Positions 400 to 10,082 of a stretch of 64,000 bases of DNA are shown here, in pieces. Location of the stretch: the NCBI GenBank assembly GCA_947460455.1, contig CANHKG010000001.1:1-64000 (forward strand), read 5' to 3'. Below the pieces are notes generated by a model. That model made no database searches, was not told the origin of the DNA, and saw only the letters and a program-made list of their open reading frames with translations. Origin of the DNA: Rhodospirillales bacterium. Lineage in GTDB: Bacteria; Pseudomonadota; Alphaproteobacteria; Acetobacterales; Acetobacteraceae. Position 1 is the first letter of the stretch; each line of letters begins with the position of its first letter. Made by a program: the position numbers and the translations under genes.

Positions 400-2034
400 G
401 TGATCGGCCCACTGCTTTCGCCCATCCCTGATTCGGCCTGGTTCACCGCCGGGCCGCGCCCTGCCGACCAGGCGCTGCCAGAAGGACTGCCTGGGGGACT
501 GCCGAAGCCGGCGATCGATGCCGGTTGGGCCGGGCGTGCCCTCCTGACCCATCTCGCCGGCCATGCCGCGCGCCAGCCGCGGGCGATCGCGATTGCCGAT
601 GGCGCCCATACCCTGGACTTCGCCGCGCTCTATGCTTCGGCCTGCCGGCTGGGCGCGGCGCTGCGCGCGGCGGCTTGGGCAGAGGGCGCGGTGGGCGTGT
701 TGCTGCCCAACGATGCGCGCTATCTCGTTGCCATGTTCGGCTGCCTGGCGGCCGGGCGGCCCTGCATGCTGCTCGACCCGCATCAGCCCGGTGCCATGCT
801 GTCTGCCGGCATCGCCGCCGCGGGCCTCGTGGGCGTGGTCGCCACGCCGGAACTGGCGGCGCGGCTCGATGGCGCGGTGCCGGTGCTCGATCCCGCCGCG
901 GCCGTCGCATGGCCGCCGGCGGACCCGGTGCTGCTTGATCCCGCCGCGCCGGTGTTCATCGTCTCCACCTCCGGCAGCACCGGCGCGCCCAAGGCGGTGG
1001 TGCAGATCCAGCAGACCATCCTGGCCAACTATGCCCAGCGGATCCGCCAGCTTCGGCTCGGCCCGCAGGACCGCGTGGCGGTGATCGGCCCGCCCGCCAC
1101 TGCCGGCGCGGTGTCGCACCGGCTTTATGCCCTGATGGCCGGGGCCGGGCTGGTGCTGCCGGACCCGCAGGCGCGGGGGCTTGGCGGCGTGCTGGAGCAG
1201 GTGCGGCACGCCCAGGCCAGCGTGCTGCATGCCACGCCGCGGCTGCTGACGGTTTTGGCCGGGCTGCCTGCCGCGCGTGCCGCCTTCGCGGGGCTGCGGC
1301 TGGTGATGCTGGGCGGGGATGCGCTGCTGCAGGCCGATCTCGCCCTGATCCGGGCCGCCCTGCCGCCGGGGTGCCGCGTGAGCTACGGGCTGAGCCTGAG
1401 CGAAGCGGCGCGGGTGGCGGGCTGGTTCGTGCCGGAGGAGGACCGGCACGACCCCGTGCGCGTGGGCTCCGGCTACATCAATCAGGGGGTGGAGGTGGCG
1501 ATCCTCGATGAGGCGGGCCACCCCGTGGCGCCCGGCGAGGCGGGCGAGCTGGTGGTGCGCACCCCCTTCGCCGCGGCGGGCGACTGGGTGGCCGGCCGGA
1601 TGGTGGCGGCACGCTTTCCGACCGATCCGGCCCATCCCGGCAAGCGCATCTACCACACCGGGGATATCGGGCGGCTTGCGCCCGATGGCGTGCTGGTGGT
1701 GCTGGGCCGGCGCGACCGGATGGTGAAGATCGCCGGCCAGCGCGTGGAGCCGGCCACGATCGAGATGGCCCTGCGCGGCCTGCCCGGCATCGCCGATGCC
1801 GCCGTGCTGGCGCGGCAGGTGGCGGGCGAGGTGCGCCTGGCGGGGTTCGTGGTGCCGTCGCCCGATGCGGCGGCGATGACCGACACGGTGCTGCTGCGCG
1901 GCGTGCGCGCGGCGCTGCACGGGAAGCTGCCCGCGGCGATGATCCCGGCCAGCCTGCACCGGATCGACGCGGTGCCGCTGACCGGTGCCGGCAAGCGCGA
2001 TGATGCGGCGCTGGCCGCCCTGGTGGGACCGTGA
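400..2034 (+). CDS. AMP-dependent synthetase/ligase (adenylate-forming enzyme), first of two in an ACP operon
   Basis: A 544-residue adenylate-forming enzyme (ANL superfamily) that should activate a carboxylic acid with ATP and pass it to CoA or a carrier protein. Visible motifs are the P-loop TSGSTGAPK near residues 189-198, an A5-like YGLSLSEA, the HTGD-containing A7 region near residue 418 running into GRRDRMVKIAGQRVEP, and the C-terminal GAGK lysine near residue 531. The catalytic set therefore looks intact. The GTG start at 400 overlaps the stop of an 11-codon leader frame (368-403) and lies in a 7-bp hairpin (386-404). It overlaps the next gene by 4 nt. The substrate cannot be read from sequence; it could be an acyl or amino acid. 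NRPS A-domain-like and acyl-CoA ligase-like are both possible. Confidence 0.88.
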   Translation: MIGPLLSPIPDSAWFTAGPRPADQALPEGLPGGLPKPAIDAGWAGRALLTHLAGHAARQPRAIAIADGAHTLDFAALYASACRLGAALRAAAWAEGAVGVLLPNDARYLVAMFGCLAAGRPCMLLDPHQPGAMLSAGIAAAGLVGVVATPELAARLDGAVPVLDPAAAVAWPPADPVLLDPAAPVFIVSTSGSTGAPKAVVQIQQTILANYAQRIRQLRLGPQDRVAVIGPPATAGAVSHRLYALMAGAGLVLPDPQARGLGGVLEQVRHAQASVLHATPRLLTVLAGLPAARAAFAGLRLVMLGGDALLQADLALIRAALPPGCRVSYGLSLSEAARVAGWFVPEEDRHDPVRVGSGYINQGVEVAILDEAGHPVAPGEAGELVVRTPFAAAGDWVAGRMVAARFPTDPAHPGKRIYHTGDIGRLAPDGVLVVLGRRDRMVKIAGQRVEPATIEMALRGLPGIADAAVLARQVAGEVRLAGFVVPSPDAAAMTDTVLLRGVRAALHGKLPAAMIPASLHRIDAVPLTGAGKRDDAALAALVGP

Positions 2035-3671
2035 AGCGGCATTGCCTGGCGGCGCTGTTGGCGGGCCTGCTGGTGAGCGCCGGGCCGGCCGCCGCCCAGC
2101 CTCGGCCAGCGGCGGATGGGCGTGTTGCGGCGGGGCGGCTGGTGGTGGGCCTCTCCGTTGCGCCCTCGGGGCTGGACCCGCACGCCTATGCCGCCAACAG
2201 CGACAGCGCCGTACATGCCAACATCTACGAGGCGCTGGTGCGGATCGACCCTGCCGGCGCCGCCGCCCCATCCCTGGCCACGGGCTGGAGCGTCGCCGAG
2301 GGATTCGCCTGGGACATCGCGTTGCGCCCTGGGGTGGTGTTCCACGACGGCACGCCGTTCACGGCACAGGATGTGGTGGCCAGCTTCGCACGGGCATCCG
2401 GCCTCAAGACCAGCCTGCGCGGCCTTGCCAGCAAGCTGCAGCCGATCACCCGGGTGGACGTGCGCGGCCCGCACGCGCTGCGCCTTTACACTGCGGGCCC
2501 CGCGCCAACCTTGATCGCCGATCTCGCCAAGGTGCCGATCCTGCGCCGGAGTGCGGCCACCGTTACGGAGCCGGAGGCATTCAACAGCCTGCGCGAAGCG
2601 ATCGGCACCGGCCCGTTCCGCGCCGTTGGCTACGTGCCGGAGGCTTCGCTGGAACTGGCCCGCCATGCCGGCTGGTGGGGCGGGGCGCAGCCATGGGCCA
2701 CGGCGGCGCTGCGCTTCATCCCGCGCGATGCGGTGCGCGCCGCCGCGCTGCTGGCCGGCGACCTCGACGTGATCGAGAAGGTCTCGGCCGCCGATGCGCA
2801 GATGCTGGCGGGACGGCGGGATTTCACGCTGGCGCGGGCGTCGGCGGCAAGCGCGGTCTATGTCATTCCCCATGTGGCCCGCGAGGAGGGCGGGGCCTTC
2901 CTGGCCGGCCCAGGCGGTGGGCCGCTGGCGACCAATCCGCTGCGCGACCGGCGGGTGCGCCAGGCGCTGTCGCGTGCCGTGGCGCGCCCGGCGCTGACCG
3001 AGCGGCTGTTGGCCGGGGCGGGCATTCCCGCCGGGCAGATCGCCCCCAACGACACGGCGCAGTTCGTGCCCGGTTTCGGCACCCCGGCGCAGGACCTGGC
3101 CGCCGCCCGCGCGCTGCTGGCCGAGGCAGGGTTCGGCGAGGGCTTCCGGCTGACGCTGCATGGGCCCTCTGACCGTTATGCCGGCATCACCCAGGTGGCC
3201 GAGGCGCTGGCGCAGATGTGGTCGCGCATCGGGGTGGCGGCACAGGTGGAGACGATGCCCTGGAACATGCTGGCGCGCCGCGCCGGGCGGGGCGAGTTCG
3301 CCGCCCTGCTGTTCGCCTGCTGCGCCAGCACGCTGGACACGCTGTCTGTCACCCGGGACCTGCTGGCCAGCAACGATCCCGCCCGCAGCCTGGGCGTCAG
3401 CAATTACGGCCGCTACGCCAACCCGGCACTGGACCGGATCCTGGAGGAGGGGCTGACGAGCTTCGATCCGATGGTGCGGGCCCGTGCGCAGCGCGAGGCG
3501 GCGCAGGTGCTGGCGGAGGACGTGCCGCTGGTGCTGCTCTACCACCCCGTCAACATCTGGGCGGCTCGCGCCCCGGTGGTGTACGAGGCGCGGCTGGATG
3601 GGCTTTCCCCCGTGACCGGTGCGGCGCGCGGGCCGGGTGATGTGGGAGTGCGGCCGAATGCCTGGCCCTGA
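2031..3671 (+). CDS. Periplasmic oligopeptide/nickel-type ABC substrate-binding protein (SBP_bac_5)
   Basis: A 546-residue family-5 extracellular binding protein (DppA/OppA/NikA-like). The first 23 or so residues form a Sec signal peptide (Lys/Arg start, Leu-Ala-rich core, cleavage near AAA-QP). The family signature follows: W-x-IALRPGVVFHDGTPFTAQD and the later 'RRVRQALSRA' segment. The GTG start overlaps the upstream ligase by 4 nt (GTGA), and the 3' end overlaps the next gene, so it is translated as part of the carrier-protein operon. No permease or ATPase lies beside it, which is unusual for a transporter component. It may feed a permease elsewhere, or bind the precursor or product of this operon. 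The ligand is unknown. Confidence 0.88.
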   Translation: MKRHCLAALLAGLLVSAGPAAAQPRPAADGRVAAGRLVVGLSVAPSGLDPHAYAANSDSAVHANIYEALVRIDPAGAAAPSLATGWSVAEGFAWDIALRPGVVFHDGTPFTAQDVVASFARASGLKTSLRGLASKLQPITRVDVRGPHALRLYTAGPAPTLIADLAKVPILRRSAATVTEPEAFNSLREAIGTGPFRAVGYVPEASLELARHAGWWGGAQPWATAALRFIPRDAVRAAALLAGDLDVIEKVSAADAQMLAGRRDFTLARASAASAVYVIPHVAREEGGAFLAGPGGGPLATNPLRDRRVRQALSRAVARPALTERLLAGAGIPAGQIAPNDTAQFVPGFGTPAQDLAAARALLAEAGFGEGFRLTLHGPSDRYAGITQVAEALAQMWSRIGVAAQVETMPWNMLARRAGRGEFAALLFACCASTLDTLSVTRDLLASNDPARSLGVSNYGRYANPALDRILEEGLTSFDPMVRARAQREAAQVLAEDVPLVLLYHPVNIWAARAPVVYEARLDGLSPVTGAARGPGDVGVRPNAWP

Positions 3672-4776
3672 TGTTGCTGAGACGCTGATTGTTCCGCCCC
3701 AGGCCCCGCCCGGAGCGCTGCGGGATGTGACCTTCGCCGACCCGCATCTGCTGGTGCGGGGTGCCCGGGTGGAGCCTGAGCGGCGAGGCCACCTGCTCGT
3801 GTTCCCGCTCCAGCTTCCCTGCGGCGATCTCCGGCTGGTGTCGCGTCATGCACAGCCGGCGGCATTGGGGATCGGCGGCGATGTGCGCCAGCTCGGCCTG
3901 CGCGTGCGCGAGCTGCGCGTGGTGCGGGGGGCGGAGGTGGTGGACGTGCCGCTCGGTCATCCCGATCTGCACGAGGGTTTCCATCCGCTGGAGGATGGCG
4001 TGGCACGCTGGACCACTGGCGATGCGCTGGTGCCGTCGCACCTGCTGGGCGATGGTACGGGGCCGGCGGAACTGCATCTGGCGGTGTGGTCGCTGCCGCG
4101 CTACCTGGCCGGGGAAACCGGCGATGCGGCGCTGTTCGCGCGGTTCGCGGCACTGGGCGACGATTGCGAGCTGGGGCTGGTGCAACGTGAATTCGGCGCC
4201 GAGCCGATGGACCTGCTGCGTTGGGTGGGCACCGACATCGCGCGGCTGATGCTGGGCCTGTGCCGGCGGTTCGAGGGGCTGGGCGACCCGGCGCGCACGC
4301 AGCTGTATTTCCGCGAGGATGAGAACGAGTACCGGCTGCGTGATCCGGTCTATCTCGGCATGCATACCTGGACCTTCGGGCGGCTGGCCGATCCGGCGGA
4401 GGAGGAGGCGATGCGGCTGGCCGGTGCGGCGCGGCTGCGGCTGATGCGGCGCAAGCTGCTGGCCGAGATCGAGGAAGGCCGGCGCATCCTGGTCTTCGCC
4501 TCCATCAAGCATGCGTTGCAGCGCGAGGCCTTCGTGGCGCTGCACGCGGCGGTGCGCGGCATCGGGCCGGCGCCGCTGCTGTGCGTGGCGCTGGCACCGG
4601 AGCGGGACATGGTTGGCCGGGTGGAGCGCCTGGGTGACGGGCTCTACCTGGGCTATCTTGACCAGTTCAGGTCGCCCACGACCGGGTTTTCCTACAGCAC
4701 CTGGCGGCGCCTGTGCCGCGCGGTGGCCGCGCTGGTGGATGCCGATGTTTCCGCGCAACCGAAGGCTGATGCATGA
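3658..4776 (+). CDS. Uncharacterised protein with GDDCELGLVQRE motif, in ACP operon
   Basis: A 372-residue soluble-looking protein I cannot assign. The N-terminal 110 residues are beta-rich without a known motif. From about residue 160 comes ALGDDCELGLVQREFGAEPM followed by DLLRW. This resembles motifs in uncharacterised Acetobacteraceae proteins found near glycosyltransferases, and distantly the Cys-containing motif of DUF1796 (putative papain-like fold). Conserved-looking His residues occur in HTWTFG and SIKHAL. I chose ATG 3658 because it overlaps the upstream stop by 14 nt; an in-frame start at 3619 would overlap by 53 nt. The stop overlaps the ACP start (ATGA). By position it should work with the ligases and ACP, perhaps as a transferase or hydrolase of the carrier-bound product; that is inference. 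Confidence 0.7.
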   Translation: MPGPDVAETLIVPPQAPPGALRDVTFADPHLLVRGARVEPERRGHLLVFPLQLPCGDLRLVSRHAQPAALGIGGDVRQLGLRVRELRVVRGAEVVDVPLGHPDLHEGFHPLEDGVARWTTGDALVPSHLLGDGTGPAELHLAVWSLPRYLAGETGDAALFARFAALGDDCELGLVQREFGAEPMDLLRWVGTDIARLMLGLCRRFEGLGDPARTQLYFREDENEYRLRDPVYLGMHTWTFGRLADPAEEEAMRLAGAARLRLMRRKLLAEIEEGRRILVFASIKHALQREAFVALHAAVRGIGPAPLLCVALAPERDMVGRVERLGDGLYLGYLDQFRSPTTGFSYSTWRRLCRAVAALVDADVSAQPKADA

Positions 4777-5042
4777 CCCTGATCCGCCCTCCCGCCCTGG
4801 AGCCCGCTGCGGTGCTGGAGGCCGTGGTCCGCATTCTGGAACAGGTGTCGCGGCGCCAGCAGCCAGGGTGCACGATGGATACGGAGTTGCACGCACTGGA
4901 TGGAGTGGACAGCCTGCGGCTGCTGGAGACGGTGGCGCTGGCGGAGGAGCATTTCGGCGTGCAGGTCGATACCGGCGGGCTGGGCCAGATCGAGACGGTG
5001 GGGGATATCGTGCGGCTGGTGGCTTCGGGCCGGCGGGGCTGA
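4773..5042 (+). CDS. Stand-alone acyl carrier protein
   Basis: An 89-residue phosphopantetheine-binding protein. The attachment motif reads LDGVDSLRLLE, with the modifiable Ser at about residue 47 at the head of helix II, followed by the acidic helix ETVALAEEHFG and the typical end 'VGDIVRLV'. Length and layout match discrete ACP/PCP proteins rather than a domain cut from a synthase. It overlaps the upstream gene by 4 nt and lies 2 nt before the second ligase, so all are probably co-translated. It is the likely acceptor of an acyl or aminoacyl group activated by one or both ligases. The fatty-acid-synthesis AcpP normally sits near fabG/fabF, which are absent here, so this is a dedicated carrier. 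Confidence 0.9.
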   Translation: MTLIRPPALEPAAVLEAVVRILEQVSRRQQPGCTMDTELHALDGVDSLRLLETVALAEEHFGVQVDTGGLGQIETVGDIVRLVASGRRG

Positions 5043-5044
5043 CC

Positions 5045-6610
5045 ATGCTTCCTCCTGATGTCTGGCGGCAGGAGGGGGCGGTGCCGGCGGCGCGGCAGGC
5101 ATTGTCGTTGCGGCCGTTGCTGGACGGCCTGGAGGAGGCCTGCCGGCATCCCGCGGGGCATGCGGCGATGGTGGGCACGGCTGGCCGGCTCTCGCGGCCC
5201 GATTTCATTCACATCGTGCGCCGGGTGGCGGCTGCGGTGCAGCGGCGTGTGCCGGTGGGGGCGCGGGTGGCGGCGTTCCTGCCGCAGACGCCCCAGGGCG
5301 TGGCGGCGTTGCTGGGCTGCGCCAGTGCCGGGCGTGTGTGCGTGGTGCTCAATCCCGCCGACCCGCCGGAGCGGCTGCGGCTGACGCTGGAGGATGCGGC
5401 ACCGGCGGCGGTGCTGTTCGACGATGCGCTGGCCGTGCAGGTGCCCTGGCCGGCGGGGGCGGGGGCGATTGCGCTGTCGGACTGCCTGGCGGGGGATGGC
5501 GACGTGGCGGCGGCGCCGCATGATCCGGATGCACCGAGCATGATCCACTACACCTCCGGCAGCACGGGGCGGCCGAAGGGGATCGTGCTGTCTTCGTTCA
5601 ACGTGATGGCGCGCGCTTCGATGATGATCGAGCGGCAAGACATGACCGAGCGGGATCGCTACCTGATCCCGACGACGATTTCCGATGGCTCCTGCGTGGC
5701 GGCGCATATCGCCGGCGTGCTGTGCGGCGGCACGCAGCTGGTGATCAGCTTCGCGGCCGAGGGGCCCGGCGGTGTGGTGCGGCTGGCGGCGCGGGAGGGG
5801 GCGACGATCCTGGCCGGGCCGACGGCGATGCTGCGGTCGCTGCGCAGCCTGGCGGCGATGCCTCAGGCGGTGGCACGGCTGCGGCTGCTGCGGATCGGCG
5901 GCAGTGGGCTGCCGGCGGATGACCTCGCCGCGTGGCGGGCGCTGCTGCCGGCGGGGTGCGGCATCAGCCATTCCTATGCCTCTACCGAGGCGATGGTGGT
6001 GAGCGACTGGTCGTTGCCGATCGAGCAGATCGCCGAGAGTGGCACGCTCAGCATCGGGCGGATGCTGCCGGGGGTGGAATACGCCCTGCTGGATGAGCAG
6101 GACCGGCCGGTGGCGGCGGGCGAGGCGGGGCAGATGGTGCTGCGCGGGCGGCAATTGGCGTTGGGCGAGTTGCAGGGCGGGCAGGTGGTGCCGGGGCGGA
6201 TGCTGCCCGATCCCGCGCTGCCCGGCGCGCGGGTGTTCCGCACCGGGGATGTGCTGCGGCGGGACGCGGATGGCATGTTGCATTTCGCCGGGCGGGCCGA
6301 CCGGCAGATGAAGGTGAATGGCGTGCGGCTGGAGCCGGCGGAGATCGAGGCGGTGCTGCGGGCGGAGCCCGGCGTGCGCGATGCGGCGGTGGTGCAGCTG
6401 GACGATGGCGCGCTGCACGGTTTCGTCGCGGTGCCGGAGCGGGATTGGGCGGAGGTGAAGCCGTTGCTGATCGCCCGGCTGCGCGACAGTGTTCCGACAG
6501 CGATGCGGCCGCGCCGGCTGCATGTGCTGCCGGCGCTGCCGCTATTGCCGAGCGCCAAGCATGACCTGGCGGCGCTGCGGCTTTTGGCCGCTCATACCGG
6601 CCCGTGTTGA
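5045..6610 (+). CDS. AMP-dependent synthetase/ligase (adenylate-forming enzyme), second of two in ACP operon
   Basis: A 521-residue ANL-superfamily enzyme. Motifs seen are HYTSGSTGRPKG near residues 167-178, the A5-like SYASTEAMV, RTGD near residue 399 followed by GRADRQMKVNGVRLEPAEIE, and a C-terminal catalytic lysine in LLPSAKHD near residue 505. It starts at ATG 5045, 2 nt after the ACP stop; a longer in-frame reading back to 4511 would run through the upstream gene and ACP and is rejected. It differs enough from the first ligase to suggest a different substrate or acceptor. Its last codons and stop lie inside a strong terminator hairpin, which marks the end of the operon. Confidence 0.88.
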   Translation: MLPPDVWRQEGAVPAARQALSLRPLLDGLEEACRHPAGHAAMVGTAGRLSRPDFIHIVRRVAAAVQRRVPVGARVAAFLPQTPQGVAALLGCASAGRVCVVLNPADPPERLRLTLEDAAPAAVLFDDALAVQVPWPAGAGAIALSDCLAGDGDVAAAPHDPDAPSMIHYTSGSTGRPKGIVLSSFNVMARASMMIERQDMTERDRYLIPTTISDGSCVAAHIAGVLCGGTQLVISFAAEGPGGVVRLAAREGATILAGPTAMLRSLRSLAAMPQAVARLRLLRIGGSGLPADDLAAWRALLPAGCGISHSYASTEAMVVSDWSLPIEQIAESGTLSIGRMLPGVEYALLDEQDRPVAAGEAGQMVLRGRQLALGELQGGQVVPGRMLPDPALPGARVFRTGDVLRRDADGMLHFAGRADRQMKVNGVRLEPAEIEAVLRAEPGVRDAAVVQLDDGALHGFVAVPERDWAEVKPLLIARLRDSVPTAMRPRRLHVLPALPLLPSAKHDLAALRLLAAHTGPC

Positions 6611-6650
6611 CCCATAAAGAGTGGGTCAACGCGGGCCGGTATGAGTCTTT
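6591..6650 (+). terminator. Intrinsic terminator of the ACP operon
   Basis: Two 24-nt arms (6591-6614 and 6622-6645) pair with one G-U/mismatch position around a 7-nt loop (TAAAGAG), followed by TCTTTGTTTTG. The left arm contains the last codons and the TGA of the upstream gene, so termination is built into the coding end. Confidence 0.85.
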
Positions 6651-6684
6651 GTTTTGCGCGCGGCCACCGGCCAGCCCCGCGCGC

Positions 6685-6737
6685 GATACCAGCCCGCGCA
6701 ATGGCTGGTAGGGTCAGCCATTGCGCGGGCTGGTATC
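6685..6737. terminator. Perfect 23-bp inverted repeat between convergent genes (probable terminator)
   Basis: Arms 6685-6707 and 6715-6737 are perfectly complementary around a 7-nt loop. The right arm reaches into the stop codon of the minus-strand LLM gene. Together with the hairpin at 6591-6645 it separates two converging transcription units. No long T tract follows on either strand, so it may act as a transcript-end barrier rather than a classical terminator. Confidence 0.7.
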
Positions 6738-7605
6738 AGGCGTAGGCGCGGACCAGCGGGGCGATCTCGGCCAGGCGGGCCTGGGTGCGTTCGGGGCGCT
6801 GGTTGCCGAGGTGCAGCACGAGGCGATGCACGCCGACCTCCTCGTATTCGCGCATCGCGTCGATCGGCATGCCGGGCGGCGGGGTCATGATGATCTGGAA
6901 TTCCGGCGGGCGTTTCTTGCCCTCCTTGGCGAAGGCGGCGTCGAGGCGGGCGATCATCTCCTTCGTGCCGGCGGGGTCGCGGCTGAAGCCGTACCAGCCG
7001 GCGCCGAAGCGCACGGCGCGGCGCAGGGCGGCACCGGCGTAGCCGCCGACGATGATCGGCACGTGCGGCTTCTGGATCGGCTTCGGGTCCAGGCGGCAGG
7101 TTTCGATGTTCACCCACTTGCCGTGGAAATCGACAACGGGCTCGGTCCAGAGGCGGCGCATGACTTCCAGGAACTCGTCGCAGCGGGCGCCGCGGTCTTC
7201 CCAGCTGTAGCCGCAGGCTTCCACTTCTTCCTTGTTCCAGCCGACTCCGATGCCGAAATCGATGCGGCCATCCGTCAGCCAATCCAGCGTGCACATTTCC
7301 TTGGCGGTGTACATCGGGTTGCGCTGAGGGACGAGCGCGACGCCGGTGCCGAGGCGGATGGTGCTGGTGGCCGCCGCGAGGAAGCCGAAGGTGGCGACCA
7401 CATCGAGCATGCCGCCGCCCTCGGGGACCGGGATGCGGCCGTCCTTGCTGGAGGGGTAGGGGAAGGTGTTGCGGTCGAACAGCACCACGTGTTCGCCCAT
7501 CCAGATGGAATCGAGGCCGGTGTCCTCGGCGCGGCGGCCGAAGTCGCGGATCATCGCCGGCGTGGCGAGCGGGGACATGAAGGTGGAGAAGATGCCGATC
7601 TTCAT
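6736..7605 (-). CDS. LLM-class (F420-dependent type) oxidoreductase
   Basis: A 289-residue luciferase-like monooxygenase fold protein. It begins MKIGIFSTF and contains GLDSIWMGEHV, the TSTIRLGTGVALVPQRNP segment typical of the TIM-barrel flavin/F420 enzymes, and FGIGVGWNKEEVEACG. It matches the 'TIGR03619-like F420-dependent' subgroup in style, but whether this organism uses F420 or FMN is not visible. The start is supported by an AGGAGG site about 7 nt upstream. A 99-nt divergent gap separates it from two acyl-CoA dehydrogenase genes, suggesting a shared promoter region and a common catabolic role. The substrate is unknown. Confidence 0.85.
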   Translation of the reverse strand: MKIGIFSTFMSPLATPAMIRDFGRRAEDTGLDSIWMGEHVVLFDRNTFPYPSSKDGRIPVPEGGGMLDVVATFGFLAAATSTIRLGTGVALVPQRNPMYTAKEMCTLDWLTDGRIDFGIGVGWNKEEVEACGYSWEDRGARCDEFLEVMRRLWTEPVVDFHGKWVNIETCRLDPKPIQKPHVPIIVGGYAGAALRRAVRFGAGWYGFSRDPAGTKEMIARLDAAFAKEGKKRPPEFQIIMTPPPGMPIDAMREYEEVGVHRLVLHLGNQRPERTQARLAEIAPLVRAYA

Positions 7606-7704: not shown

Positions 7705-8820
7705 ATGAAGTTCAGCTTTTCCGCCGAGCAGGAGGCATTCCGCGAAAGCCTGCGGGGGTATCTCGCGGAGCGGTCGCCGACCAAGGAGGTGCGGCGGCTG
7801 ATGGAGACCGAGGCCGGCTGGGAGCGCGAGGGCTGGGCGCGGATGAATGCGGAGATGGGGCTCGCCGCCGTGCGAATTCCGGAAGCCTATGGCGGGCAGG
7901 GGTTTGGGTTCTCCGAGCAGTGCATCATGCTGGAGGAAATGGGGCGGGTGCTGCTGTGCGCGCCGTTTTTCGCCAGCGCGGTGTTGGCCGCCGGTGCGAT
8001 CCTGCAGGCGGGGACCGAGGCGCAGAAGGCGGCGCTGCTGCCGGGGATCGCTTCCGGCGATGTGGTGGGCACGCTGGCCTGGGTGGAGGATTCCGGGCGC
8101 TGGGATGCCGAGGGGACGACGCTGTCGGCGGTGCGCGATGGCGCGGGCTGGCGGCTGGATGGGCACAAGAGCTTCGTGATCGACGGGCATACGGCGGATT
8201 TGATCGTGGTGCTGGGGCGCACGGCGGCTGGGCTTTCGCTGTTCACGGTGGATGGGGCTGCGGTTTCGCGGCGGGCGGTGCAGGGGATTGATCCCACGCG
8301 CAAGCTGGCGCGGCTGGCGTTTGCGGGCGTGCCGGCCGCGTTGCTCGGCGAGGACGGCGGGGCGGCGGGGCCGTTCGGGCGGGTGATGACCGAGGCGGCG
8401 GTGTGCCTGGCCAATGAGATGGTGGGCGGGGCGGAGCGGCTGCGCGAGGATGCGTTGGCCTACGCCAAGATGCGGATGCAGTTCGGCAAGGTGATCGCCG
8501 GGTTCCAATCCATGAAGCACAAGCAGGCGGACATGCTGATGGAGGTGGAACTGGCGAAGAGCGCCGCCTACTACGCCGCCGCGGCGCTGGATGAGGGCGA
8601 CGCGGATGGGGCGGTGGCGGCTTCCATCGCCAAGGCGGCGGCCTCGGAGGCGTATCTGCAGACGGCGATTCATGCGGTGCAGATCCATGGCGGGATCGGG
8701 TTCACCTGGGACAACGAGACGCATCTCTGGTTCAAGCGCGCCAAGGCGAGCGAGGTGATGCTGGGCGATGCGACGCTGCATCGGGAGCGAATGATGCAGG
8801 CGATGGTGGAGGGCGCGTGA
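7705..8820 (+). CDS. Acyl-CoA dehydrogenase family protein (371 aa)
   Basis: An FAD-dependent acyl-CoA dehydrogenase-like protein of 371 residues, near the family's usual size. It starts MKFSFSAEQEAFRESLRGYL, has the mid-domain 'GTLAWVEDSGRW' region and ends with the helical C-domain containing AYAKMRMQFGKVIAGFQSMK and IHGGIGFTWDNE, the flavin/tetramer contact typical of the family. A GGGAGAT site precedes the ATG. Its stop overlaps the start of a second, distinct acyl-CoA dehydrogenase. Such paired genes often encode alpha2beta2 heteromeric enzymes acting on unusual acyl-CoAs (steroid side chain, terpenoid, branched acids). The actual substrate is not deducible. Confidence 0.88.
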   Translation: MKFSFSAEQEAFRESLRGYLAERSPTKEVRRLMETEAGWEREGWARMNAEMGLAAVRIPEAYGGQGFGFSEQCIMLEEMGRVLLCAPFFASAVLAAGAILQAGTEAQKAALLPGIASGDVVGTLAWVEDSGRWDAEGTTLSAVRDGAGWRLDGHKSFVIDGHTADLIVVLGRTAAGLSLFTVDGAAVSRRAVQGIDPTRKLARLAFAGVPAALLGEDGGAAGPFGRVMTEAAVCLANEMVGGAERLREDALAYAKMRMQFGKVIAGFQSMKHKQADMLMEVELAKSAAYYAAAALDEGDADGAVAASIAKAAASEAYLQTAIHAVQIHGGIGFTWDNETHLWFKRAKASEVMLGDATLHRERMMQAMVEGA

Positions 8821-10082
8821 TGAGCGAGGCGATGGGCAGCGAAGCGGGGGTGCGCGCCGAGGTTCGGGCCTGGCTGGCGGAGAACTGGGACCCGGCGCTG
8901 GGGCTGGTGGAGTGGCGGACGCGGCTGGCACATTCCGGCTGGGGCATGCCAACCTGGCCGACGCGGTGGTACGGGCGGGAGATGCCCGAGGCGATGGTGC
9001 CGGTGATCGAGGAGGAGTTTGATCAGGCGGGCGCCATCGGCGTGGCGCGGATCGGCATCCGCACGTTGGCGGCGGCGACGATTCTGGCGCACGGGACGGA
9101 TCTGCAGAAGGAGAAATACCTGCTGCGGATCCTCACGGGCGAGGATACGTGGTGCCAGTTGTTCAGCGAGCCGGGCAGCGGCAGCGACGTGGCCGGTGCG
9201 GTGACGCGGGCGGAGTTCCAGGGCAACCAGTGGGTGGTGAACGGGCAGAAGGTGTGGACCACCAGCGCGCACAAGGCGCATTGGGGGCTGCTGCTGGCGC
9301 GGACCAACTGGGATGCGCCGAAGCATCGCGGGCTTTCGTATTTCATCATCGACATGAAGCAGCCGGGCGTTTCGGTTTCGCCGCTGCGGCAGATGAACGG
9401 GTTCGCCAGCTTCAACCAGGTGTTCCTGACCGACGCGATCGTGCCGCCGGAGATGATCGTTTCCACCGAGGGCGATGGGTGGACGGTGACCAACACCACG
9501 CTGATGCATGAGCGGCGCGGGGCGGATGGGTTGCGGGCGCAGCCGAAGGGGAGCGACCGGCCGGAGCGGATCTATGGCGAGGAGCGTGACGAGATCGCGG
9601 TCGCGCTGGAGCCGTATCGTTGGTACCCCTCCCGGGCCGGGCGGGTGGATTTGGTGTTGCCGCGGGCGATCGAGACCGGGGCGATCCATGATCCCGTGGT
9701 GCGGCAGGAGGTGGGCAAGCTGCTGGTGATGGCGCGCTGTGCCGAGTTCACGGCGCGGCGGGCGCGGGCGGCGAAGGAGCAGGGCAAGCCGCAGGGGCCC
9801 GAGGGGTCGCTGGGCAAGCTGGCGGCGAGCGTGGTGGCGCGGGCTGCGGCGCGGGTTCATACGCAGATCACCGGGGCGGGGGCGTTGCTGGCCGGGCCGG
9901 AGGCGGCTGCGGGCGGGACGGTGGCGGAGATTCTGCTGTCGGTGCCGGCGGTTTCGATTGCCGGCGGGACGGATGAGATCCAGCGGAACATCATCGCCGA
10001 GCGGGTGCTGGGGATGCCGCGGGAGCCGAGCGAGGATACGAAGAAGCCGTTCCGGGATGTGCCGCGGAATACGGTCGGATAA
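8820..10082 (+). CDS. Acyl-CoA dehydrogenase family protein (420 aa), partner of the upstream gene
   Basis: A second acyl-CoA dehydrogenase, longer than its neighbour. Visible features are the N-terminal helical part with WGMPTWPTRWYG, the FAD/substrate segment QLFSEPGSGSDVAG, the 'VVNGQKVWTTSAHKAHWG' strand, and the C-terminal 'SIAGGTDEIQRNIIAERVLG', all standard for large-subunit-type FadE proteins. I start it at ATG 8820 (TGATG overlap with the preceding stop); GTG 8817 would add one residue. Tight coupling to the 371-residue paralogue suggests they form one heteromeric enzyme. After the stop there is 350 bp without a gene. Confidence 0.88.
   Translation: MSEAMGSEAGVRAEVRAWLAENWDPALGLVEWRTRLAHSGWGMPTWPTRWYGREMPEAMVPVIEEEFDQAGAIGVARIGIRTLAAATILAHGTDLQKEKYLLRILTGEDTWCQLFSEPGSGSDVAGAVTRAEFQGNQWVVNGQKVWTTSAHKAHWGLLLARTNWDAPKHRGLSYFIIDMKQPGVSVSPLRQMNGFASFNQVFLTDAIVPPEMIVSTEGDGWTVTNTTLMHERRGADGLRAQPKGSDRPERIYGEERDEIAVALEPYRWYPSRAGRVDLVLPRAIETGAIHDPVVRQEVGKLLVMARCAEFTARRARAAKEQGKPQGPEGSLGKLAASVVARAAARVHTQITGAGALLAGPEAAAGGTVAEILLSVPAVSIAGGTDEIQRNIIAERVLGMPREPSEDTKKPFRDVPRNTVG

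Follow-up and report, generated by a model that had tools for sequence, protein, structure and literature searches.

A conserved carrier-protein cassette of Acetobacteraceae organized around g3, a candidate release or transfer enzyme

Gene organization of the locus

The window, the whole 64,000-nucleotide stretch of DNA analysed here, begins at a contig end. The draft genome to which it belongs is 5.2 Mb in size, and its relatives, for the most part metagenome-assembled genomes, belong to the Acetobacteraceae. Close to this end lies a compact operon of five plus-strand genes (Table 1), with successive overlaps of 4, 14 and 4 nt and a final gap of 2 nt. AMP-binding and AMP-binding_C domains are found in A1 and A2, SBP_bac_5 in the second gene product and PP-binding in the fourth; the third is referred to as g3. 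Coordinates, overlaps and Pfam domains agree with the initial annotation, which had described five tightly packed genes. The operon is not a product of chance, because gene order and reading frames are kept across other genomes and dN/dS is below 1.

Table 1. Features of the operon and its surroundings in the window
Feature	Position	Strand	Basis
A1, stand-alone NRPS-type adenylation enzyme	400..2034	+	544 aa; PF00501 1.7e-47 and PF13193
SBP_bac_5 solute-binding protein, periplasmic	2031..3671	+	PF00496 7.4e-61
g3, two-domain protein without known family	3658..4776	+	~372 aa; conservation, AF2 models, 2g6t fold match
ACP, discrete acyl/peptidyl carrier protein	4773..5042	+	89 aa; PF00550 2e-6; Ser in DGVDSL
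A2, stand-alone NRPS-type adenylation enzyme	5045..6610	+	521 aa; PF00501 1.1e-54
Dispersed 160-bp repeat with two long hairpins (6591-6648, 6685-6737)	6585..6745	.	genome matches, hairpin energies
LLM (luciferase-like) oxidoreductase, conserved neighbour	6736..7605	-	PF00296; synteny in L057 and L066
Acyl-CoA-dehydrogenase-like pair	7705..10082 (7705-8820, 8817-10082)	+	same pair directly 3' of g3-ACP in L059 and L060

The start of g3 is likely the ATG at 3658, which matches its relatives, rather than the GTG at 3619 where the reading frame opens. Residues of g3 are numbered from the Pro codon at 3661. The ACP carries a PP-binding domain with the modifiable Ser of the DSL motif, as the initial annotation had noted, and the genome contains a phosphopantetheinyl transferase match; each operon-bearing genome of the genus has one such PF01648 match of AcpS size. 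The solute-binding protein starts with a stretch that resembles a signal peptide by eye (MKRHCLAALLAGLLVSAGPAAAQ). ABC importers of the Opp/Dpp/Nik type combine an SBP_bac_5 protein with its own permease and ATPase. Here the domain stands alone, and no permease or ATPase gene lies beside it in this operon or in the long-form operons of relatives.

Distribution and variants of the cassette

The complete order A1-SBP-g3-ACP-A2 occurs in two further genomes of the same genus, G005 (L057) and G007 (L066). In a third, G002 (L058), the same order is present until a contig end cuts A2. Two genomes of another genus carry variants: A1-SBP-g3-ACP followed by a contig end in G253 (L061), and the altered order A1-SBP-g3-A2-ACP in G285 (L062). 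The initial annotation had asked for such a comparison and had named an order found nowhere else as a refutation; since the order recurs, it is not refuted on this count. A further genome, G003, retains g3-ACP-A2 (L056, A2 cut by a contig end). Its A1 and SBP genes have shrunk to a 163-aa fusion of the A1 start and the SBP end (L056 773-1264); the cause is an internal deletion, unless the assembly is at fault.

Shorter arrangements are also found. Four loci contain g3-ACP-A2 without A1 and SBP (L068, L069, L072, L193), two have g3-ACP with a converging A2 (L067, L073), and one shows the order A-g3-ACP (L078). Two more (L059, L060) lack an A domain; there, a pair of acyl-CoA-dehydrogenase-like genes comes directly after g3-ACP. 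The stable core is therefore smaller than five genes: it consists of g3, the ACP and an A domain, and is shared by several Acetobacteraceae genera. A1 and SBP are an optional add-on that is confined to the long version. Full-length g3 was found in 20 genomes of seven genera among 397 sampled from the family, as counted from the search listing. In 289 genomes sampled from the class, the C-terminal part of g3 found no match at E 1e-15 except in the window's own genome, although a broader search reached Reyranella, Caulobacter and Methylocystis.

The components also occur as single chains. A-T-g3 proteins are encoded at L070 and L071, and longer chains with an extra protein ahead of this unit (C-A-T-g3) at L052, L074, L075 and L189; Pfam identifies the extra part of L052 as a condensation domain. 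All fused forms place g3 behind T, the position where TE domains sit. The condensation domain of L052 (8812-13221) has TQVACDAP in place of HHxxxDG, as judged by eye, and is probably non-catalytic because this motif is missing. The window's own genome also contains a C-A-T-g3 gene (G000:C42, L042 9835-14244), which is broken by a TAA codon; unlike there, the gene is open (1469 aa) in G005 and G007.

Two neighbourhood observations complete this survey. An OpgC gene, encoding a periplasmic-glucan acyltransferase, lies directly upstream of the long version at L061 and is a single hint towards envelope glucans. Elsewhere in the window's genome (G000:C213, L043 3585-5042), a lone enzyme with 44% identity to A2, lacking Asp235 and without an adjoining ACP, is located near genes resembling the division genes mraZ and rsmH.

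Linkage and joint exchange of g3 and ACP

After removal of near-identical copies, an ACP gene was found within three genes of 13 of the 16 distinct stand-alone g3 genes that encode both the N and C parts, always on the same strand. The corresponding count for distinct genes encoding the C part only was 17 of 56. Control genes of the same loci included 2 ACPs in 385 genes (Fisher 5e-9 for N+C and 2e-5 for C-part-only genes). Since 39 of the 56 C-part-only genes have no ACP nearby, the link between the C domain and carriers is not a strict one. Most full-length g3 loci have an A domain beside the ACP or joined to it in one chain.

Comparison of close genomes adds a second line of evidence. Nucleotide identity between the window and G005 falls to 0.63-0.79 over 3601-5100, which covers g3 and ACP, against 0.86-0.99 in the flanking coding sequence; along the rest of the operon and the downstream genes it is mostly 0.90-0.99. 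Synonymous divergence (pS) reaches 0.41 in g3 and 0.36 in ACP, compared with 0.10-0.22 in A1, SBP, A2, the dehydrogenases and the LLM gene. G005 and G007 carry one type of g3-ACP (98-99% identical protein), while the window and G003 carry the other (82-85%). These sequence patterns indicate that the g3-ACP pair alone has been replaced as one block with its neighbours kept, a behaviour that would be expected of a matched carrier and enzyme.

C-part proteins, either plain or with TPR repeats, also adjoin an FkbH-type protein and a discrete ACP at L099, L135, L076 and L201. Membership of the FkbH family was confirmed for the first three (TIGR01686, 288-300 bits). FkbH makes glyceryl-ACP, as in the methoxymalonyl-ACP and tetronate systems. 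By sequence, these loci represent a second, putatively FkbH-loaded version of the system; the window operon differs from it in having A domains instead of FkbH. Another C-part gene is accompanied by an AMP-binding ligase and an ACP.

Adenylation enzymes and the acid they would load

Both adenylation enzymes contain the core motifs SGSTGxPK and TGD and the C-terminal catalytic Lys, so the intact catalytic motifs reported initially could be retrieved. Their best NCBIfam model is TIGR01733 (NRPS adenylation), with 218 bits for A1, a score below the model cut-off, and 248 bits for A2. Alignment to EntF gives the pocket codes AGSHMGGRVK for A1 and GSAARGSVVK for A2. Asp235, which in NRPS A domains binds the alpha-amino group of the substrate, is replaced by Ala in A1 and Gly in A2, and is missing from all stand-alone A domains of the cassettes. 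The A domains of fused A-T-g3 proteins keep it (code DVFSVAAVYK). Loss of this residue suggests that the acid activated by the stand-alone enzymes is probably not an alpha-amino acid.

Arg at position 299 is conserved among A2-type enzymes, except at L078. The exact acid was sought from the pocket codes and the attempt was abandoned: no nameable known code was matched, and only the absence of Asp235 and the presence of Arg299 were usable. Small polar or hydroxy acids are plausible by analogy, because FkbH or an AMP-binding ligase together with an ACP adjoins distant C-part genes.

Sequence, conservation and predicted fold of g3

Sequence searches of g3 against Pfam, NCBIfam and the PDB gave no match, the last also when a g3 profile was used. 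AlphaFold models predict an N-terminal beta-sandwich (about residues 24-142) and a C-terminal alpha/beta domain (about residues 152-362), with an AF2 pLDDT of 88 for the whole protein and 94 for the C part. Six residues are invariant across 35 sequences of the g3 family: F162, G166, C169, Q175, H235 and W348. Among 52 divergent C-part sequences, most of them 28-45% identical to g3, the Cys, Gln and Trp remain invariant and the His nearly so. In the models, the first strand leads into a helix that begins with Cys169, the position occupied by the nucleophile in SGNH-type and related alpha/beta enzymes. Cys169 and His235 look like an active site, and are treated here as a candidate. Cys169 could instead be structural.

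The closest solved structure is 2g6t, with Z 8.0-8.4 for g3 and Z 8.4 for the C part (4.0 Å, 171 aligned), but the Foldseek E values are weak (0.03-0.05), and models that lack a clear match commonly reach a top Z of about 8. Next among the fold neighbours of the C part is the OatA O-acetyltransferase domain (Z 6.3, 3.5 Å, 122 aligned). A DUF1919 protein matches 2g6t by sequence at E 1e-20, so 2g6t can be regarded as a DUF1919 structure. No hit to DUF1919 (PF08942) or DUF1796 (PF08795) was obtained with g3 at E 0.1, or with its relatives at E 1. In a plain alignment of g3 C parts with 12 DUF1919/DUF1796 sequences, 30 sequences in total, every member has its Cys in the Cys169 column, and His235 of g3 shares a column with five of six DUF1796 members. 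Profile comparison by hhalign gave a weak signal with DUF1796 (E 0.002-0.01) and none with DUF1919 (six-sequence set). Pfam labels DUF1796 a 'putative papain-like cysteine peptidase'. A papain-like fold, guessed for g3 from its Cys-His motif, was rejected: the models are alpha/beta and match DUF1919, OatA and Rossmann-like chains.

Genes of the two DUF families differ from g3 in their surroundings, as glycosyltransferase and polysaccharide genes, not ACPs, are found next to them in the loci inspected. Published descriptions place them in loci for capsule or exopolysaccharide (PMC5901230, PMC3609815). We found no demonstrated activity for any member of g3, DUF1919 or DUF1796.

Both domains of g3 have lives of their own. 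For the N part, only weak fold matches were obtained, some of them to beta-sandwich domains of glycoside hydrolases (Z 4-5). The g3 sandwich also occurs behind Hint domains; the Hint_2 proteins concerned (L029, L030, L036-L038, L041, L060 524-1792) are common among Acetobacteraceae, and plasmid records contain only the N part, in Hint proteins. C parts are also joined to TPR repeats or GT61/methyltransferase proteins.

Proposed mechanism and alternative explanations

The initial annotation, which proposed a dedicated carrier-protein pathway, is supported in part; both this view and the conservation of the gene order hold up. It also stated that ketosynthase, condensation, MBOAT and thioesterase genes are absent. 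None is indeed present in the operon. Even so, the operon probably does encode a release or transfer enzyme, namely g3, given its pairing with the ACP, its fusion behind T and its candidate Cys-His site. The protein listed as unknown is thus the centre of the system.

We propose, with a probability of about 0.5, that A2 loads the ACP and that g3 transfers the acyl group through Cys169 and His235 to an acceptor. A2 would adenylate a carboxylic acid, probably other than an alpha-amino acid, and attach it to the phosphopantetheine arm of the 89-aa ACP. g3 would dock on the acyl-ACP and take the acyl group onto Cys169, with His235 as base. It would then pass the group to the acceptor, a task carried out elsewhere by a thioesterase, a condensation domain or DltB/D. 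In the long version only, A1 would provide a second or alternative acid, and the exported solute-binding protein would recapture or sense the product or a precursor. Loading of the operon's own ACP, catalysis by Cys169 and transfer in preference to hydrolysis are the steps that we infer. A glycan or another envelope molecule as acceptor is a guess, and the glycan option draws on relatives alone, because the window operon encodes no glycosyltransferase.

Transfer must be weighed against hydrolysis. As an editing or releasing thioesterase, g3 would release the acid, either as such or in modified form, from the ACP, yielding a small soluble product. The Cys-His pair and the ACP linkage would serve this reaction equally well, single-chain g3 sits behind T exactly where a TE would, and the acyl-CoA-dehydrogenase-like pair beside g3-ACP at L059 and L060 fits oxidation on the carrier before release. 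However, the placement of DUF1919/DUF1796 relatives among glycosyltransferase and polysaccharide genes suits transfer better (PMC5901230, PMC3609815), and the additional N-terminal beta-sandwich suggests a second substrate; we therefore regard release by hydrolysis as rather unlikely. Unlikely, too, is a role of g3 as an ACP-binding accessory or as an enzyme of other chemistry, for example a scaffold between the carrier and a glycosyltransferase or oxidase. What block exchange and fusion demonstrate is no more than a joint role of g3 and ACP, and C parts are fused to TPR repeats and GT61/methyltransferase proteins. Against this reading, Cys169 is invariant and His235 nearly so in 52 divergent sequences, with Cys169 common to two further families, a pattern that looks like an active site.

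A more distant reading treats the ligases as ordinary acyl-CoA synthetases of a catabolic cluster that includes the solute-binding protein and acyl-CoA dehydrogenases, the ACP serving another purpose. Acyl-CoA dehydrogenases and the LLM oxidoreductase are indeed nearby, the operon contains the SBP gene, and Asp235 is lacking. Yet A1 and A2 score best with TIGR01733 and not with CoA ligases, and the A domain is next to or fused with the ACP in most full-length g3 loci, which makes this reading improbable.

Relation to known systems and wider meaning

The cassette resembles the dlt operon in its small size, its discrete adenylation enzyme and carrier, and a likely transfer of the acyl group elsewhere. 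It differs in lacking an MBOAT (DltB) gene, a DltD gene and Asp235. Scores against the DltA model are 99-100 bits (cut-off 560), and the DltC model is also far below its cut-off. Assignment to the dlt operon, in which DltA, DltB, DltC and DltD occur together, was consequently rejected, as were the MBOAT and CoA-ligase readings. NRPS termination modules (A-T-TE and C-A-T-TE) offer a parallel for the g3 fusions, in which g3 follows T at six sampled loci, although g3 has no sequence match to TE domains. Among working systems, the closest precedent for such a mechanism is BtrI-BtrH of butirosin biosynthesis, where a Cys acyltransferase hands an acyl group from an ACP to a sugar; the likeness considered here is one of mechanism.

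Tentatively, g3 may be the founder of an undescribed class of carrier-protein release or transfer enzymes with a DUF1919-like alpha/beta fold and a Cys-His site, used both in stand-alone cassettes and as the terminal part of A-T and C-A-T proteins. The DUF1919 and DUF1796 proteins of exopolysaccharide clusters, which have not been studied, might likewise transfer acyl or related groups. If true, this reading would be the first functional lead for both families. According to a 2021 survey of Acetobacteraceae, a complete C-A-PCP-TE set is missing from most NRPS clusters of the acidophilic group; its authors suggested that hypothetical proteins conceal non-canonical domains (PMC8776678). A concrete candidate is g3, which has a putative active site open to testing, a defined ACP partner and naturally occurring single-chain forms.

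A dispersed repeat at the A2 stop codon

The strong terminator placed at 6591-6650 by the initial annotation corresponds to a real hairpin (6591-6648, -53.8 kcal/mol, z -12.5). This hairpin is the first half of a 160-bp REP/MITE-like repeat inserted at the A2 stop codon, and a simple terminator scan did not list it. The repeat matches 28 places in its own genome, about 20 separate copies, as some places are the two arms of one copy. It is absent from the same site in the close relative L057, where the A2 and LLM genes overlap, and the assignment as an operon terminator is thereby weakened and unproven. The hairpin may still stop transcription, though it is not peculiar to the operon. In the window, the element supplies the last six or so codons of A2.
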